A DNA stretch of 27,174 nucleotides. It comes from a virus. The stretch spans positions 1-27,174 of IMG/VR virus record IMGVR_UViG_3300025000_000363. One strand, written 5' to 3'. The notes beneath the pieces were generated by a model. That model was not told the DNA's origin. It ran no database searches and saw only the letters and a list, made by a program, of their open reading frames with translations. A program made the translations under genes and the position numbers. Positions 143-25,234 of the stretch are shown here, piece by piece (the stretch's first letter is position 1; every line of letters begins with the position of its first letter).

Positions 143-170
143 TTGACATTAATTATTTTTCTGCTACCTT
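143..170 (+). promoter_or_regulatory. Probable rightward sigma70-type promoter for the replication genes
   Basis: A perfect -35 hexamer TTGACA is followed after 16 bases by TACCTT, in an AT-rich spacer that stands out from its surroundings. It points toward the replication gene that starts 150 bases downstream. The -10 match is weak, so this is a prediction from position and the -35 box. Confidence 0.45.
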
Positions 171-248
171 GCGGCAAAATTGAATATCAACCGCTGGTCG
201 AGAGCGTGTTAAAACTTGGTGATGGCTCCTAGTTGAGCCAGATCCCGT

Positions 249-290
249 AAGCCTGTCAGGATGCTCGACCCATCTTGGCAGGCTTTCGTT
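249..290 (+). terminator. Hairpin in the leader of the O gene, possible attenuator
   Basis: AAGCCTGTCA at 249-258 can pair with TGGCAGGCTT at 276-285, giving ten pairs including one G-T, with a 17-base loop. It is followed by TTTCGTTATTTC. It sits between the predicted promoter and the O gene start, where it could act as a leaky terminator or attenuator. The loop is long and the T run is broken, so its strength is uncertain. Confidence 0.4.
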
Positions 291-319
291 ATTTCAGCCG
301 ATGGCAAAAAGGGATGGGA

Positions 320-5867: not shown

Positions 5868-7088
5868 TTAATGACCGGGTTTCAACCTCACACACTCACC
5901 GAACGGCGGAGGGCTGGCTTGATACTTTCCGGTATTTACCCATAACACTGGCATTTCTGGCTCGTTGCCGTAATCTGAACATTGCAAGTCACTCAAATAA
6001 ACGACGGCGCAAGGCGTTTCTTCTGCGTTCTCTTCAATCCATTCCCAAACCGGGCTAAACCTCGTCCCGCCGCCGCCTTTCGCGTCAAGTCTAATCGGGC
6101 GCGTCTCTGCGGTGAATTCCTCAACGTGTTGTACTTTCGTGTCACAGTAAACCACGGTGACGGTCGTCGGGTACTGGTTCAAAATGTCGTCAATCTCGCT
6201 TGCAAACTGTTGTAAATCGTCCTTGGTGATACTACCGGACGTGTCAACGGCTACAACAAGCGGCGGCATTTCCTGGTTGTAGAGTGAGGGAAGGATAAGG
6301 CCTCTTGAGAAATAACGCGGGTTCGGACGCTTCCAGGTGTAATCGTTTCGGGCGGTGCGGTCGATGAATTGCCGTAAAGCCTCTCGCCAGTCAACGACAG
6401 GCTCCAAGAGTTCGTCAACGTACCTTGCAAGACTTCCCGGCAATTTGCCTGCCATTTTCGCGGCCTGTGCTGCCTGCTGCGTGGCGATTTTCCAGTCTTG
6501 CGCGTTCTGGGCCTTGTCGCTGTCGCTGGCTGGTTGTCCGTCTTTTCCTGGCAAGTCTCTGACTTCACCACATTTACCGGGATCGCCTAAATTTGGCTCC
6601 TGCGGTCCTTTGCCTTGCTTCCCCTGTCCGTTGCCTGCTCCGTTTCCCTTTCCCGGTCCTGGGCCTTGTGGTGGCTCTGGAATAAGGTTGTAAATTGCTT
6701 CTGCTTCCAGGTTGTGGAACGCGGGATTATCAAGATGATCTTTCGGTAAAACCATTCCTGCCGTTTTGATGAGATGATTTATACTGAGGTCGGCAGAAGT
6801 ATTCCAGCGTTGCGGGTCGCGTTCTCCCCGTCTGCATTGGTGCGCGTTGGCAAGGTGCATTACTTCATGGCACAAGACCCCTTTAAGCTGGTCAATGGGC
6901 AAAGAATCAACAAAGGCGGGGCAATAGCCAATACTTACTCCATCGGTCCACATGGTGCGCTGCTCGGGGTTCGGGATGTAAAGCATTTCATCCTCTATCA
7001 ACTTGGTTTTGAGGGCAAGCGAGCCAAAAAACGGTTGATCGAGGATAAGAGCTGCCCTTGCTTTCTGCATTTTCTGTTGTGCGGTCAT
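5868..7088 (-). CDS. Metallopeptidase-like protein with VWA domain (DUF2201/COG3864 type)
   Basis: A 406-residue protein with two domains. The N-terminal part (about 1-135) resembles the putative metallopeptidase domain and holds HEVMHLANAH, with H74, E75, H78 and H83 placed as in HExxH zinc sites. A Gly/Pro/Gln-rich linker covers about 138-195. The C-terminal part (about 275-400) is a VWA-like fold with a complete MIDAS: DTSGS at 282-286, Thr342 in GGGGTRF and Asp367 in LSDLQ. ATG 7088 has a GGAGGGAAAACCA ribosome site; the upstream extension to 7193 is not credible. Such proteins pair with MoxR-type ATPases, and one is encoded upstream in this operon. The substrate is unknown. Confidence 0.88.
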   Translation of the reverse strand: MTAQQKMQKARAALILDQPFFGSLALKTKLIEDEMLYIPNPEQRTMWTDGVSIGYCPAFVDSLPIDQLKGVLCHEVMHLANAHQCRRGERDPQRWNTSADLSINHLIKTAGMVLPKDHLDNPAFHNLEAEAIYNLIPEPPQGPGPGKGNGAGNGQGKQGKGPQEPNLGDPGKCGEVRDLPGKDGQPASDSDKAQNAQDWKIATQQAAQAAKMAGKLPGSLARYVDELLEPVVDWREALRQFIDRTARNDYTWKRPNPRYFSRGLILPSLYNQEMPPLVVAVDTSGSITKDDLQQFASEIDDILNQYPTTVTVVYCDTKVQHVEEFTAETRPIRLDAKGGGGTRFSPVWEWIEENAEETPCAVVYLSDLQCSDYGNEPEMPVLWVNTGKYQASPPPFGECVRLKPGH

Positions 7089-7234
7089 TGGTTTTCCCTC
7101 CATTCCTTCATGCTGGCCTTGGTAAATCCCATACAGAACCAGTACCATCCTAAAGATGGGTTCCATTGCGGTACTTTTAAGCCTCCGCAGCATTCACATA
7201 TTGTGTCTGCTGGCCTATTGTCGGGCTGTTGCAT
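7085..7234 (-). CDS. Small Cys-rich protein, 49 residues
   Basis: AAGGAGGCATC precedes ATG 7234. The product has CECCGG near residues 13-18 and a further cysteine in WYWFCMGF, with several tryptophans; this may bind metal. It overlaps the VWA gene start by four bases (ATGA) and so is probably coupled to it. An in-frame TTG start at 7297 lacks a ribosome site. No family recognised. Confidence 0.62.
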   Translation of the reverse strand: MQQPDNRPADTICECCGGLKVPQWNPSLGWYWFCMGFTKASMKEWRENQ

Positions 7235-8604: not shown

Positions 8605-9615
8605 CTAAATCAAAATGGACTGATGCGCGGTTGCCCACTTCACAAAGCCTCGTGAACTGGTTACGGTCGGGGCAAGTTTCACGGCGTCTCTCATCAGCAA
8701 AACAGAAAATTCAGCGGGTAAGCGGTCGCAATATTCCGCAAGTCGATCAATCGTGTTATCGGAACACTTACGGCTCAAAGCACCACAAAGTGCATACAGG
8801 GTCGCGGGGTCGGTCGGCACTTCTCCCGCCTGGGGATTCATCAATATCGCGTCGGGGTTCGGGAGGTTGCGACAGATACGGAGAAATCCAAGGAATTCAG
8901 CGGCGAACGCTTCACCGGCTGCGCCTGCTATTACCGGATATTCAAGCTCTTGCGCGATCCCTAAATTTAAGATCCTGCCGACGTTGGCAACGGTGCGGGG
9001 GCAAGGGCTGTTAAAAAGGTCGGGGCTTGGCTTAAAGTCGTGCAAAAGGTTCGGGCGGAAGCGTACAAAACTAATCAACTCGGTCGGCATGTTGTTGCTC
9101 AATGCCCAATTGCACCAGGAATCAAGGTCGGGCTGTAACTCAACTATGGTTGTAAAGCGGGATTTGACCGGCTCTAAAAGTCCTGATACTCCGGCGCGGT
9201 CCTGGCGGCGGTTGGTGGCTCCGATAAAGCAAACGTGATCAGATACTTTATGGCCATTGACACGACGTGCTAGAATCAGTTGCATTGCGGCGGCCTGTGT
9301 TGCGGGTGGCGCTTGTCCAAGATCGTCTAAAAAGAAAAGTGTGGGGCGCGTTGCCTCGACTGCTTGGCGGAGTTCACCAAAAGGTAAAAACTCGGCAGCG
9401 TTGTTGACTATTCCAGGCAGCCCCTTGAAGTCTACGGGGTCCGACACGACAGGGTGAGTTATAATCAGGTCTGCTCCTGCGGCTTTCGCGGCCTGTGACA
9501 CAATATCCGATTTGCCTACACCGGGAGCGCCTTGGATCAATACCGGCTCTCTAGCGGGTATCATCGTTGCTAAAAGCGTTTCAAGCTGTTTTGGGTTCAA
9601 TGCGATCTCTGACAT
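8605..9615 (-). CDS. MoxR-family AAA+ ATPase
   Basis: This chaperone-like ATPase is thought to remodel or insert cofactors into partner proteins with VWA domains. Seen in the 336-residue product: Walker A GAPGVGKS at 29-36, Walker B LFFLDD at 93-98, sensor-1 region GATNRRQD with N135, and an SRF arginine near 153. The C-terminal half is helical and unlike the rest of the window. ATG 9615 is used because AAGGAGG sits nine bases before it; a TTG six bases earlier would be too close. It heads the ATPase/DUF3150/VWA set, with a small Cys-rich gene and a membrane peptide gene between them. Confidence 0.92.
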   Translation of the reverse strand: MSEIALNPKQLETLLATMIPAREPVLIQGAPGVGKSDIVSQAAKAAGADLIITHPVVSDPVDFKGLPGIVNNAAEFLPFGELRQAVEATRPTLFFLDDLGQAPPATQAAAMQLILARRVNGHKVSDHVCFIGATNRRQDRAGVSGLLEPVKSRFTTIVELQPDLDSWCNWALSNNMPTELISFVRFRPNLLHDFKPSPDLFNSPCPRTVANVGRILNLGIAQELEYPVIAGAAGEAFAAEFLGFLRICRNLPNPDAILMNPQAGEVPTDPATLYALCGALSRKCSDNTIDRLAEYCDRLPAEFSVLLMRDAVKLAPTVTSSRGFVKWATAHQSILI

Positions 9616-9617
9616 GG

Positions 9618-9689
9618 TCAATTTCCTCCTTTAATCTGTAGTAATGCCCAAACGAGCACGATAATTCCGCCGATGGTGATACATTCCAT
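9618..9689 (-). CDS. Tiny membrane peptide, 23 residues
   Basis: ATG 9689 opens MECITIGGIIVLVWALLQIK and stops after GGN, two bases before the MoxR start codon. The ribosome site is moderate (TAGAGG, six bases upstream). The single hydrophobic helix and tight coupling to the ATPase gene parallel the 36-residue peptide at 7298-7408. It may also act simply as a coupling leader. It is short, so confidence is limited. Confidence 0.45.
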   Translation of the reverse strand: MECITIGGIIVLVWALLQIKGGN

Positions 9690-21018: not shown

Positions 21019-21159
21019 ATGAACCAAACAATTAGCCTGCCAAAAAACTACACTGAAAAACTAAAACAAGAAAAAGCATCTACCGGACAAACCATGTCAG
21101 AAATTATCAGACGCGCCCTGGATCTCTATTTCGAGAAAAGGGAGCGTGGCAATGTCTGA
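21019..21159 (+). CDS. Ribbon-helix-helix (CopG/Arc-type) regulator, 46 residues
   Basis: A complete minimal RHH domain: strand TISLP, helix A NYTEKLKQEKAS, turn TGQTMS, helix B EIIRRALDLYFEKRERG. It should dimerise and bind DNA by the strand. AAAGGAGCAAGCGC precedes the ATG and a good promoter lies upstream, so it likely represses itself and the following HNH gene. The HNH gene overlaps it by eight bases. Confidence 0.8.
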   Translation: MNQTISLPKNYTEKLKQEKASTGQTMSEIIRRALDLYFEKRERGNV

Positions 21160-21703
21160 CATCCCTTATGGTTATTGTCATTGCGGTTGTGGAGTTAAGA
21201 CTAGTGTTGCTGGCTGTAGCCGGTTTGCAAAGGGCCAAATCAAAGGAGAGCCTGTTAAATACATTCACGGGCATTCTCCAAGTCGACCATTGGTTGAAAG
21301 GTTTTGGGAGAAGGTTCTCAAAACTGAATATTGTTGGGAGTGGACGGGTAGCAAAAGTCGCTATGGGGCGATAAGGATCAATGGTAAAAATAAAAAAGCA
21401 AACCGTGTCGCATGGGAACTCACTTACGGTCCAATTCCGGAAGGCTTACACGTCCTTCACAAGTGCGATAACCCCGGTTGCGTTAATCCTAAACATCTTT
21501 TTCTTGGCGACCATACTGATAACATGCAGGATATGGTTAAGAAAGGAAGGGGTGGCAGAGCAAAACTGACTCTGGATCAAGTCAAAGAGATAAGGTCTAT
21601 CGGTAGGTCTGTTACCTCCGGTACAATAGGCAAACAATATGGTATCTCTGAGACTCAGGTTTGCGCCATTCTTCGAGGGGACCAGTGGGGTAGTATTCTG
21701 TGA
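21152..21703 (+). CDS. HNH homing endonuclease with C-terminal DNA-binding domain
   Basis: The 183-residue protein holds an N-terminal Cys-rich part (YCHCGCGVKTSVAGC), then the HNH core: WEWTGSKSRYGAIRINGKNK, RVAWELTYGPIPEG, VLHKCDNPGCVNPKHLFLG and TDNMQDMVKKGR. A helix-turn-helix follows (LTLDQVKEIRSIGRS, then TIGKQYGISETQVCAILRG). This is the common phage HNH layout for homing nucleases. ATG 21152 is preferred over GTG 21146, with GGGAG eight bases upstream. It separates terL from the portal region, consistent with a mobile insert that carries its own promoter. Confidence 0.88.
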   Translation: MSDIPYGYCHCGCGVKTSVAGCSRFAKGQIKGEPVKYIHGHSPSRPLVERFWEKVLKTEYCWEWTGSKSRYGAIRINGKNKKANRVAWELTYGPIPEGLHVLHKCDNPGCVNPKHLFLGDHTDNMQDMVKKGRGGRAKLTLDQVKEIRSIGRSVTSGTIGKQYGISETQVCAILRGDQWGSIL

Positions 21704-22181: not shown

Positions 22182-22687
22182 GCAGATGGACGGAATTGCG
22201 TGATAAATTGCTAGGTATTGGTGTTGAACCTAAAAGTGTCATGATTTCGGCTGAAGAGAGTGAGAGGCAAAGGGCGCTTGCTGAACATGCACGACGGCAA
22301 TGGGAAGAGTACCAAAGGCAATATCTTGTGCCGCCTATGACATCTGGAAACGTAGCCGCCTCTCCCCCGAAACCGACCTCCATCACCATCTCTCTCGAAA
22401 CTTTCCAGAAGATGCAGATCGAGTCAGGCAGGGAATTACTCTCTGCGTTGTCCGTGATGATGCGCATGGAGGGGATTGACGTAGCTGAGGCGGATAAGAT
22501 TACGATTGAGATCGGGGATGAGGTCAAAGTTAGTGCTATCCCTGCACCTGTCAAACATACAGTCAAGGTTGATACGGATGGGTACGTGTCGGGATTCGAT
22601 AGTGGCTATGCTAAGGCAGCACAATATATGGCGGATAACATGGACAAGCTAATTCTCGACAGCATCAGGAATGAAAATAAAAGTTGA
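22178..22687 (+). CDS. Hypothetical protein, 169 residues
   Basis: ATGA overlap with the upstream gene. The first 50 residues are a charged helix (EESERQRALAEHARRQWEEY). A Pro/Ser linker follows (PPMTSGNVAASPPKPTS), then a TISLETFQKMQIESGRELLS helix and an acidic strand region ADKITIEIGDEVKVS. No family recognised. It is the last gene before the structured RNA region. Confidence 0.68.
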   Translation: MSRWTELRDKLLGIGVEPKSVMISAEESERQRALAEHARRQWEEYQRQYLVPPMTSGNVAASPPKPTSITISLETFQKMQIESGRELLSALSVMMRMEGIDVAEADKITIEIGDEVKVSAIPAPVKHTVKVDTDGYVSGFDSGYAKAAQYMADNMDKLILDSIRNENKS

Positions 22688-22719
22688 CAAACGCTTAATT
22701 GTATGTTTCTGTGCTTTTC

Positions 22720-22875
22720 ATGAACAAGCCCTTGTGGTTAATTAATTTGCTAAAGGACTTGAAAAGAGAAGGTGAGATGCCTGTTACGCATACAGGCGAG
22801 GTTATGATTCTTGTCAACGTGTCACAAGGGGGTATTCAGGATGCGAAGGTATCGGTTTCCAAGACTATAAGGTGA
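22720..22875 (+). CDS. Small ORF before the structured RNA, 51 residues
   Basis: The frame from ATG 22720 gives MNKPLWLINLLKDLKREGEM and ends in a beta-rich GEVMILVNVSQGGIQDAKVS. The tail has the look of small DUF2292/YezD-like peptides (GEV-x-I-x-V-x-x-GGIQDAKV). ATG 22720 has no ribosome site; ATG 22777 has GAGAAGGTGAG and would give 32 residues. A TTGACA at 22684 lies upstream but without a good -10 box. The stop is at the edge of the first RNA hairpin, so it may be a leader peptide. Confidence 0.5.
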   Translation: MNKPLWLINLLKDLKREGEMPVTHTGEVMILVNVSQGGIQDAKVSVSKTIR

Positions 22876-23073
22876 GGGCGCAAGCCCTTTATGTGCGAGG
22901 GTTCCGGTTGGGCCCCATGGCGGCAGCACTGACGGGCCGCGTGACCCTTCGGGGTTGAGCCTGTGACCGAAAGGCATAGGAAACCGGTGACTTTGGGAGT
23001 GGAAAGAACTCCTGACAAATAATTTTCGGAATCTTAAAGTCGCCTCCTCGATGGTGGAGGATGATTGAACGAG
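22874..23073 (+). ncRNA. Structured RNA leader of the portal gene, riboswitch-like
   Basis: Read from the sequence: hairpin AGGGC-GCAA-GCCCT (22875-22888). A closing stem of CCGGTT (22904-22909) with AACCGG (22982-22987) bounds a domain of three arms. Arm one pairs GGCCC (22911-22915) with GGGCC (22934-22938). Arm two is ACCC-UUCG-GGGT (22944-22955), a C(UUCG)G tetraloop. Arm three is CCTGTG-A-CC-GAAA-GG-CATAGG (22960-22980). Then come GGAGT (22996-23000) with ACTCC (23008-23012), and CCTCC (23043-23047) with GGAGG (23056-23060). A multiway junction with stable tetraloops is a hallmark of selected RNA folds. No cobalamin, TPP or c-di-GMP riboswitch core is recognisable. It is most likely a cis-acting leader; an independent small RNA is the alternative. 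Confidence 0.75.
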
Positions 23074-23125
23074 AGGGCCGGATGGTAATCAAGGAAACTT
23101 GACGCTATCCGGCCCTTTCTTTTTT
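23074..23125 (+). terminator. Strong intrinsic terminator directly before the portal gene
   Basis: AGGGCCGGAT (23074-23083) pairs perfectly with ATCCGGCCCT (23107-23116). Inside, TCAAG and CTTGA form a second stem over a GAAA loop. A TTTCTTTTTT tract follows at 23116-23125, and the portal ribosome site GGAG begins at the next bases. Transcription would stop before the portal gene unless the structure is prevented, so this is an expression platform candidate for the RNA upstream. Confidence 0.9.
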
Positions 23126-23134
23126 GGAGCAAAC

Positions 23135-25234
23135 ATGCAAGCAATCGACGGCGTGTCAAGCATCGGATTTCATAAATTCAGACCTCCAAGTGCCGTCTTT
23201 GCCGAACAAGCCTCCAAGACCCCTGCCCCGCAAGACAACCCTATCATCTCTCCCCTTTCCGGATACATCGACAAATGTTGGGACGCTGCGAAAATGGCGA
23301 AACAGCCGATTGAACAGCAGATGCTTAGAAACCTCAGAATGGATAACGGCATCTACGAAGCTGACGTTCTGGCGGCAATCAGGGAAATGGGCGGGTCGGA
23401 AGTCTATGTCCTTCTGACTGCGAAACTCTGTAGGGCAGCGGAAACGTGGATCAACGACATCCTCCGACCGATAGACGACAAGCCGTGGACGATTCAACCG
23501 ACTCCGGTAGCGCAACTTCAACCAGACCTTGAAGCCGAAATCATGAATGAGACTGAGATGGTCTACCAGGAAGTCTTAGCTCAAATTATGCAGGCCGGAG
23601 AGATGTTCAATCTCTCCGACATCAAGGACGAAATCAGAGAGTACGCGACGACGAAACGCGACAAGGCTTTACGGGAAGTGCAGGAAGAAGCCGTTAGACG
23701 TTGCGCTAGAATGTCGCAGAAGATCGATGACCAGATGACCGAAGGGGGCTTTCACGATGCACAGTGGGCCTTTGTCTCCGACTTTGTAAGACTCAAGGCC
23801 GGCATCATCAAGGGTCCGGTCGTAAGACAGGTCAAGACTCAGGAATGGGTGCAGGGACCGGATGGCTGGAATGTCTCTGCGACGAAAAGCCTCAAGCCGA
23901 CCTACGAACGAGTTTCCCCATTTGACTTGTATCCCGCTCCTGACTCACGAAATCCCGATGACGGTTATTTGATCGAAAGAATCCCCCTGACTCGTAAAGG
24001 CTTGTGGGAGATGATCGGCGTCCCTGGCTACTCCGAAGAGAACATCAGGACCGTCATTCGTGAGTACGGCGTTGGAGGGAAGAGAGAACAGCTTTCAATC
24101 GACTCTCAGAGAGCGATGTTCGACTTTGGTTCCACCGACTCCCTCTACAAGTCGGACAAGATGGACGGTTTAGAGTTTTGGGGTTCGGTCCCTGGTTCGA
24201 TGTTAATTGATTGGGGCATGAAAGACCTCGACCCTGAAGAAGAGTACGAAATCAACGCAATCATGGTCGGGTCGTATGTCATCAGGGCAATTCTTAATCC
24301 GGACAAATTAGGGAGAAAGCCGTACTCGGTAGATTCCTATCATAGAGTTCCTGGTTCCTTCTGGGGCAAGGGCGTTCCTGAGTTAATGGCAGACGCACAG
24401 CATCAGGCAAATGTCGCGGGCAGGGCGATTGCCAACAACGCGATGCTGGCTTCAGGACCGATCATCGAAGTCAACACCGATAGATGCGGTGAGAACGAGA
24501 AGTTACACCCCTGGAAAATCTTTCAGTCCACCAACGCGCAAATGCTCGAAGCTCCCGCCGTTCGAGTCTACAACATCCCGATAGTCGTGCAACAGCTTCA
24601 GGCTGTCTTGGAAGTCTGGTCAACCATTGCGGAAGATCAGACCGGCATTCCACGATGGGCTTACGGCAATACCAGTATCGGCGGTGCCGGGTCCACGTCT
24701 TCCGGTCTTTCTATGCTCATGACTTCCGCTTCCAGAAACATCAAGGAAGCAATCGCACACATTGATCGCGTCTTTGCCGGCTGTGTCTCTCGGACCTACG
24801 ACTTCAACATGCTCTACGACGCTGATGAAAGTCTCAAGGGAGATGCGAAAGTCGTAGCAAGGGGTTCCGCAGGGTTCATGGCGAAGGAACAGAAGACCGT
24901 TCGCACGAACGAGATCCTTGCCGCTACCAACAACCCGATAGACTCGCAAATCATGGGTATACCCGGCAGAGCAAAATTGCTCAAGGTGGCGCTGCAAGGA
25001 CTCGATATTCCGGTTGACGACATCATCCCTGATGAAAATGGACTCAAGGAGATCATGGCGAAGATCGAGGAGCAGCAGAAAGCTCAACTCATTCAGTTGC
25101 AGCAGAAAGGTTCCTCTCCGATGGGTGGTACTCCGACAGGCATGAATGGGCCGTCTCCCGGCCCCGCGCCTCAAACCCTCGACCCTGCGGGGAATCCTGC
25201 GGGTGGGGCTGATATGCAGGGGATAGCGGCATGA
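23135..25234 (+). CDS. Portal protein
   Basis: The dodecameric portal forms the DNA entry ring of the prohead. This 699-residue product resembles large portal proteins of podovirus type: a helical N-terminus (PLSGYIDKCWDAAKMAKQPI), a stem/clip region with TYERVSPFDLYPAPDSRNPD, the segment HRVPGSFWGKGVPELMADAQ followed by HQANVAGRAIANNAM, and SSGLSMLMTSASRNIKEAIA near the middle of the C-terminal half. The end is a coiled EEQQKAQLIQLQQKG and a Gly/Pro-rich tail. GGAGCAAAC lies just before ATG 23135, right after the terminator. The family is assigned by pattern and by its place between terL and the scaffold. Confidence 0.88.
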   Translation: MQAIDGVSSIGFHKFRPPSAVFAEQASKTPAPQDNPIISPLSGYIDKCWDAAKMAKQPIEQQMLRNLRMDNGIYEADVLAAIREMGGSEVYVLLTAKLCRAAETWINDILRPIDDKPWTIQPTPVAQLQPDLEAEIMNETEMVYQEVLAQIMQAGEMFNLSDIKDEIREYATTKRDKALREVQEEAVRRCARMSQKIDDQMTEGGFHDAQWAFVSDFVRLKAGIIKGPVVRQVKTQEWVQGPDGWNVSATKSLKPTYERVSPFDLYPAPDSRNPDDGYLIERIPLTRKGLWEMIGVPGYSEENIRTVIREYGVGGKREQLSIDSQRAMFDFGSTDSLYKSDKMDGLEFWGSVPGSMLIDWGMKDLDPEEEYEINAIMVGSYVIRAILNPDKLGRKPYSVDSYHRVPGSFWGKGVPELMADAQHQANVAGRAIANNAMLASGPIIEVNTDRCGENEKLHPWKIFQSTNAQMLEAPAVRVYNIPIVVQQLQAVLEVWSTIAEDQTGIPRWAYGNTSIGGAGSTSSGLSMLMTSASRNIKEAIAHIDRVFAGCVSRTYDFNMLYDADESLKGDAKVVARGSAGFMAKEQKTVRTNEILAATNNPIDSQIMGIPGRAKLLKVALQGLDIPVDDIIPDENGLKEIMAKIEEQQKAQLIQLQQKGSSPMGGTPTGMNGPSPGPAPQTLDPAGNPAGGADMQGIAA

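Follow-up and report, generated by a model that had tools for sequence, protein, structure and literature searches.

A conserved intrinsic terminator directly 5' of a phage portal gene as a candidate gate of the head operon

The late structural operon of lambda is preceded by a promoter, a short leader and an intrinsic terminator, tR', which must be bypassed. Phage morons are small genes that have a promoter and a terminator and lie between late genes, the put RNA of HK022 is composed of two hairpins conserved in sequence, and the phage protein P7 is small. Antitermination at the lambda late promoter PR' is the task of Q (PMC7171158), and in the Caulobacter GTA the GafYZ antiterminator, loaded at the promoter, bypasses an early terminator of the head cluster (PMC11150451). 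AlpA of Pseudomonas aeruginosa is reported to be a promoter-loaded factor that bypasses a downstream intrinsic terminator (PMC7969949, PMC9371919), the HK022 put RNA to be a cis-acting RNA that affects the polymerase near promoters (PMC9378689), and P7 to antiterminate at an intrinsic terminator (PMC6624301).

We analyzed a 27,174-nucleotide stretch of viral DNA (IMG/VR record IMGVR_UViG_3300025000_000363, hereafter the window), in which a preliminary description had proposed a riboswitch-like attenuator upstream of the portal gene. All of the RNA elements named there were located in the sequence, and the portal leader with its surroundings comprises the following features.

22684..22689, plus strand: candidate −35 element TTGACA upstream of the small ORF; the −10 element is poor in the window copy
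22720..22875, plus strand: 51-aa ORF of an alpha-beta-beta small protein family (A7), a candidate trans factor
22876-22887: GCAA hairpin
about 22878-23024, plus strand: multi-arm RNA module, apparently an optional insert, absent in L003-L005
22904-22909 (CCGGTT) paired with 22982-22987 (AACCGG): helix closing the junction
22943-22956: TTCG hairpin
22960-22980: GAAA hairpin
22996-23012: hairpin inside the multi-arm module, with one compensatory A-U to G-C change
23012..23040, plus strand: second promoter-like site, CTGACA-17-TAAAGT, of low confidence (6 of 40 shuffles score equally high)
23024..23041, plus strand: TTCGGAATCTTAAAGTC motif preceding hairpin 1; L003-L005 retain it, and L035, L042 and L044 have similar versions
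23043..23060, plus strand: hairpin 1 (CCTCC/GGAGG); nearly all leaders have a GC-rich hairpin here
23071..23125, plus strand: intrinsic terminator, 21-pair stem and T-tract (hairpin 23071-23119, T-tract 23115-23125)
23126..23134, plus strand: portal Shine-Dalgarno sequence (GGAG) and spacer, too short for any promoter
23135..25234, plus strand: portal gene (PF23899, E 1.7e-11; phrog_332, E 2.7e-48)

The reading we favor, with a probability of about 0.58, is that the 5' leader of the head operon contains a transcriptional gate of the lambda tR', AlpA or GTA kind, which would be released by antitermination. Terminator gating of structural operons is already familiar in kind from lambda Q and the Caulobacter GTA (PMC11150451), in contrast to the earlier suggestion that RNA control at the portal would be new or little described.

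The terminator lies next to the portal ribosome site, as described before, but its stem is longer than the ten pairs first counted, with 21 pairs and −35 kcal/mol (z −7.8 versus shuffled sequences), and 9 nt separate the end of its T-tract from the portal ATG (23135). The whole portal leader folds with a z of about −5 relative to shuffled sequence because the terminator hairpin carries it. Within the 60 kb of one relative's genome that were examined, the portal-leader hairpin outranks every other intrinsic-terminator hairpin. A ranking of single hairpins in six genomes placed it first in four and second in one; from the L121 genome, it had been excluded by the filter for single hairpins. Portal-based searches, which reached about 50% portal identity, yielded 22 loci with an intrinsic terminator immediately 5' of the portal; the start was mapped in 19 of the 22, and in these the distance between the end of the T-tract and the portal ATG is 6-22 nt. 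The stem sequences vary among the leaders (GGCCGG, AAGCCCGG, ACCCGCG, GCCCGC, ACCCCGUAUC) with the pairing retained: 98.3% of pairs are kept across 18 distinct sequences, and two-sided changes occur at 5 of 10 pairs. None of 500 shuffles equaled this result, and slid controls scored far lower. In L008, whose portal is 98% identical, a new terminator stands before the portal and the rest of the leader is replaced. A leader terminator is absent from nearly all portals more distant than this clade; in annotated phage records, the portals found were only distant (under 60% identity), and the leader DNA had no match. The portal terminator is real and conserved; relatives retain its position while altering its sequence, which gives it the appearance of a deliberate on/off gate.

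The terminator could also simply be leaky. That it acts as an unregulated partial terminator or 5' stabilizing hairpin, which would set the dose of head genes and protect the mRNA end, strikes us as improbable: a hairpin directly before the Shine-Dalgarno sequence would indeed cap a processed portal mRNA, and strong hairpins followed by T-tracts also stand before structural genes within the late region, but the near-perfect terminator strength and the compensatorily kept T-tract exceed the needs of stabilization, and related phages with a promoter right before the portal have no such hairpin.

The position of the promoters speaks for a gate. By consensus matching, the terminator-bearing leaders have sigma-70-like promoters at about −150 to −320, before the terminator; those of L035, L037, L039, L041, L043 and L121 beat 40 of 40 shuffles, and that of L240 beat 39 of 40. 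In nine terminator-less leaders (L010, L011, L012, L034, L038, L104, L114, L123 and L171), a sigma-70-like promoter lies 53-100 nt before the portal ATG. In L041, L121 and L240, the promoter, hairpin and terminator follow one another without any gene between promoter and terminator. Portal transcription must therefore pass the terminator, since the promoters are upstream and at least three leaders contain no gene in between. In the window copy, the promoter scores weakly against the consensus; the TTGACA that lies some 36-40 nt upstream of the small-ORF start codon is kept in L003-L005 and L009 despite diverged flanks. The attenuator position assigned earlier to the terminator is thus borne out by its conservation between promoter and portal, its compensatory changes and its recurrence at another operon, which is described below.

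The multi-arm junction upstream of the portal, in which the preliminary description had seen an aptamer, is present as drawn, but its folding energy is no better than chance because z values versus dinucleotide-shuffled sequence are small in size (−0.5 to −1.6 for the junction alone), the closing helix is lost in some folds, and one arm is rearranged between alleles by a 2-nt insertion. Near-identical copies of the module in four contigs represent only two alleles, which differ by six substitutions and one 2-nt indel; beyond one compensatory change, the module showed no covariation among homologues of the kind expected from an aptamer. L003-L005 (portals 96-98% identical) cleanly lack the module but retain the terminator, the CCTCC/GGAGG hairpin and the flanking TTCGGA motif, and the module is missing from most of the clade. 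Other leaders have tRNA genes between the small ORF and the terminator, namely tRNA-Tyr (L040:2800-2885), tRNA-Thr (L107:2312-2387), and tRNA-Met plus tRNA-Asn (L111:1528-1783), and a tRNA-Met-like stretch was seen by eye in L042. Because it is missing in near-identical relatives and tRNA genes are located there in others, the module is an optional passenger in a docking spot for RNA genes. Judged from these sequence comparisons, the multi-arm fold is not a conserved part of the leader, and it would probably not be the sensor.

These results make it highly improbable that the multi-arm RNA is a ligand-sensing riboswitch or other aptamer, which would switch the terminator upon binding of a ligand or protein. 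A structured RNA and a terminator do follow in the appropriate order, the hairpin at 22996-23012 has its compensatory pair change between the alleles, and the module is less diverged between them than the portal silent sites. However, close relatives keep the terminator without the module, other relatives have tRNA genes in its place, and antiterminator pairing with the 5' arm of the terminator was no more frequent than in shuffles on average (mean z 0.03), even though UUCGG/CCGGA are able to pair in several leaders. The module matched no Rfam family at gathering or relaxed thresholds; the aptamer-plus-terminator interpretation and the gating of head genes by a ligand through this fold are not supported.

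Two further identities of the module were rejected, a tRNA or tRNA-like RNA (ARAGORN 0, no RF00005 match at E up to 10, T-loop missing) and a group I/II intron (Rfam unmatched, size only about 147 nt). A group I intron (RF00028, 64.7 bits) does occur at L108:6454-6714, downstream of the portal match.

The small ORF beside the gate encodes a member of a family of 14 proteins of about 50 aa. The AF2 model comprises a helix and a beta hairpin (pLDDT 87); comparison with PDB folds gave nothing convincing (best Z 2.2), and DUF2292 (PF10055) matched faintly in two of the 14 members (best E 0.0097), with the window member unmatched. The small protein was found in 11 of 13 contigs with the terminator versus 0 of 7 without it, an association that may reflect few events because the phages are related and only one of the four terminator-less genomes scanned is more than a fragment. 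The two exceptions are L008 (a 25-kb contig) and the L240 MAG, in which the contig with the portal ends 1.7 kb upstream. The L041 and L121 leaders have no small ORF, and the small-protein gene is instead upstream of the terminase gene. On this association, the 50-aa alpha-beta-beta protein would be the best candidate for a trans factor.

Between the window and L009, the cassette at 22720-23125 is 1-4% diverged versus 37% in the upstream flank and about 10% in the portal. With a divergence far below that of its flanks, the stretch from the small ORF through the terminator either travels as one unit or is conserved as such; recent exchange or strong constraint may account for this. The cassette might thus resemble a moron, with the small ORF and a passenger RNA gene inserted between terminase and portal together with their own promoter and an end terminator, which the late transcript would pass by general antitermination or leakiness. 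The divergence pattern, the tRNA genes at the same place in relatives and the HNH gene found there instead in L008 all fit such an insertion, which we nevertheless consider unlikely in view of the terminator in L041, L121 and L240 with no gene after the promoter, the T-tract that always abuts the portal Shine-Dalgarno sequence, and the same layout before replication genes. The L008 ORF (2440-2920, HNH-type-looking by eye) lies between terminase and portal and replaces the leader except for the new terminator. The window itself has a free-standing HNH endonuclease gene between terminase and portal, at 21146-21703.

The arrangement seen at the head genes recurs near the start of the window.

about 88-127: terminator upstream of the replication-operon promoter
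143..170, plus strand: promoter of the replication operon, TTGACA-16-TACCTT, a consensus match
224..239, plus strand: hairpin (GGCTC/GAGCC) before the second leader terminator, recognized by eye
249..297, plus strand: second leader terminator (−21.7 kcal/mol), directly 5' of the replication O-like gene
start at about 314/320: replication O-like gene (phrog_678, E 2.6e-46)

A genome scan revealed the promoter-hairpin-terminator-Shine-Dalgarno-ORF layout before replication-initiation genes in the window and in the L006, L121 and L107 genomes. In the L040 genome, it precedes a 123-aa gene, holin-like by eye (L262:18876-18977, genome about 38876-38977); this second copy was matched by a covariance model built from the portal leaders (E 8.5e-4) and has the motif CGGTTAG and the spacer CTA-ATGA in common with that genome's portal leader. 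The model also recovered the untrained portal leaders L037, L039 and L043. Scanning four terminator-less genomes, of which only L123 is long (66.8 kb) and the others are fragments, gave no convincing case at an operon start. The same layout at the replication operon suggests one common antitermination system, which would serve both the replication and head operons.

In the mechanism that we propose, RNA polymerase would start at the sigma-70-type promoter predicted upstream by consensus matching, transcribe the short leader and then meet the strong intrinsic terminator. The anatomy and its conservation show the terminator to lie so near the ribosome site of the portal gene that read-through is the only route to portal mRNA. 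Read-through would presumably need antitermination during the lytic program, as at lambda PR'-tR', and the small protein beside the gate may act as the antitermination factor. This reading is favored because the terminator is kept at a near-fixed distance from the ATG, its stem shows two-sided changes, some leaders have promoter and terminator without a gene, and the layout recurs; it is weakened because the window promoter is weak, hairpin 1 beats shuffles only weakly, L008 has no small protein in its 25-kb contig, and no lambda Q or Q21 family protein was found. The lambda Q and Q21 families (PF03589, PF06530) each matched 0 of 9 genomes, with control genomes positive, and a search for T7-like RNA polymerase (PF00940) matched none, with no signal from the control either.

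A more specific version, which we put forward tentatively and rate as rather unlikely, is a new processive antitermination system of Geobacterales-associated phages, in which the small protein, encoded beside the gate or beside the terminase, would recognize nut-like hairpin-1 RNA and let the host RNA polymerase pass the terminators of replication, head and lysis leaders. Hairpin 1 is single and variable in sequence among leaders and scores weakly better than shuffles (mean z −1.2 across leaders); together with its CGG-containing flank, it is a weak candidate for a cis signal. By eye, UCUUAAA and the hairpin resemble boxA/boxB (nut).

The best matches of a portal search of bacterial genomes were a Geobacteraceae and a Deferrisomatales MAG contig, no more than a hint at the host. 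The window also contains an unusual phage gene pair on the minus strand: a phrog_1314 gene (5868-7193), annotated as an HNH endonuclease with a sequence that looks VWA/CoxE-type, and a phrog_1297 MoxR-like ATPase gene (8605-9621).

With the transcriptional gate as the favored reading, an odd RNA fold becomes a testable regulatory scheme in an uncultured phage group, in which terminators stand directly 5' of the replication and head ribosome sites. If read-through is regulated, this would be antitermination without a known Q protein and with a 50-aa candidate factor. The comparison also shows the portal leader to be a spot where genes for tRNAs and other structured RNAs settle.

Like lambda PR'-tR', the portal leader combines a constitutive-type promoter, a short leader and an intrinsic terminator before a late structural operon; unlike lambda, the terminator abuts the Shine-Dalgarno sequence of the first gene, the nine genomes have no match to PF03589 or PF06530, and the layout is also present at the replication operon. 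The phage-like head cluster of the Caulobacter GTA likewise has a terminator near its beginning, but there it comes after the first gene and consists of 150-bp repeats, whereas the phage has a plain hairpin within the 5' leader. AlpA shares the intrinsic terminator downstream of a promoter, with a cell-death operon as its target in place of a head operon. HK022 put shares the presence of RNA hairpins in cis close to promoters, where they could influence the polymerase, although the single, variable hairpin 1 differs from the two conserved hairpins of put. The window cassette resembles morons in having a small gene, a promoter and a terminator between late genes; unlike in morons, the terminator persists without the gene and also stands at other operons.
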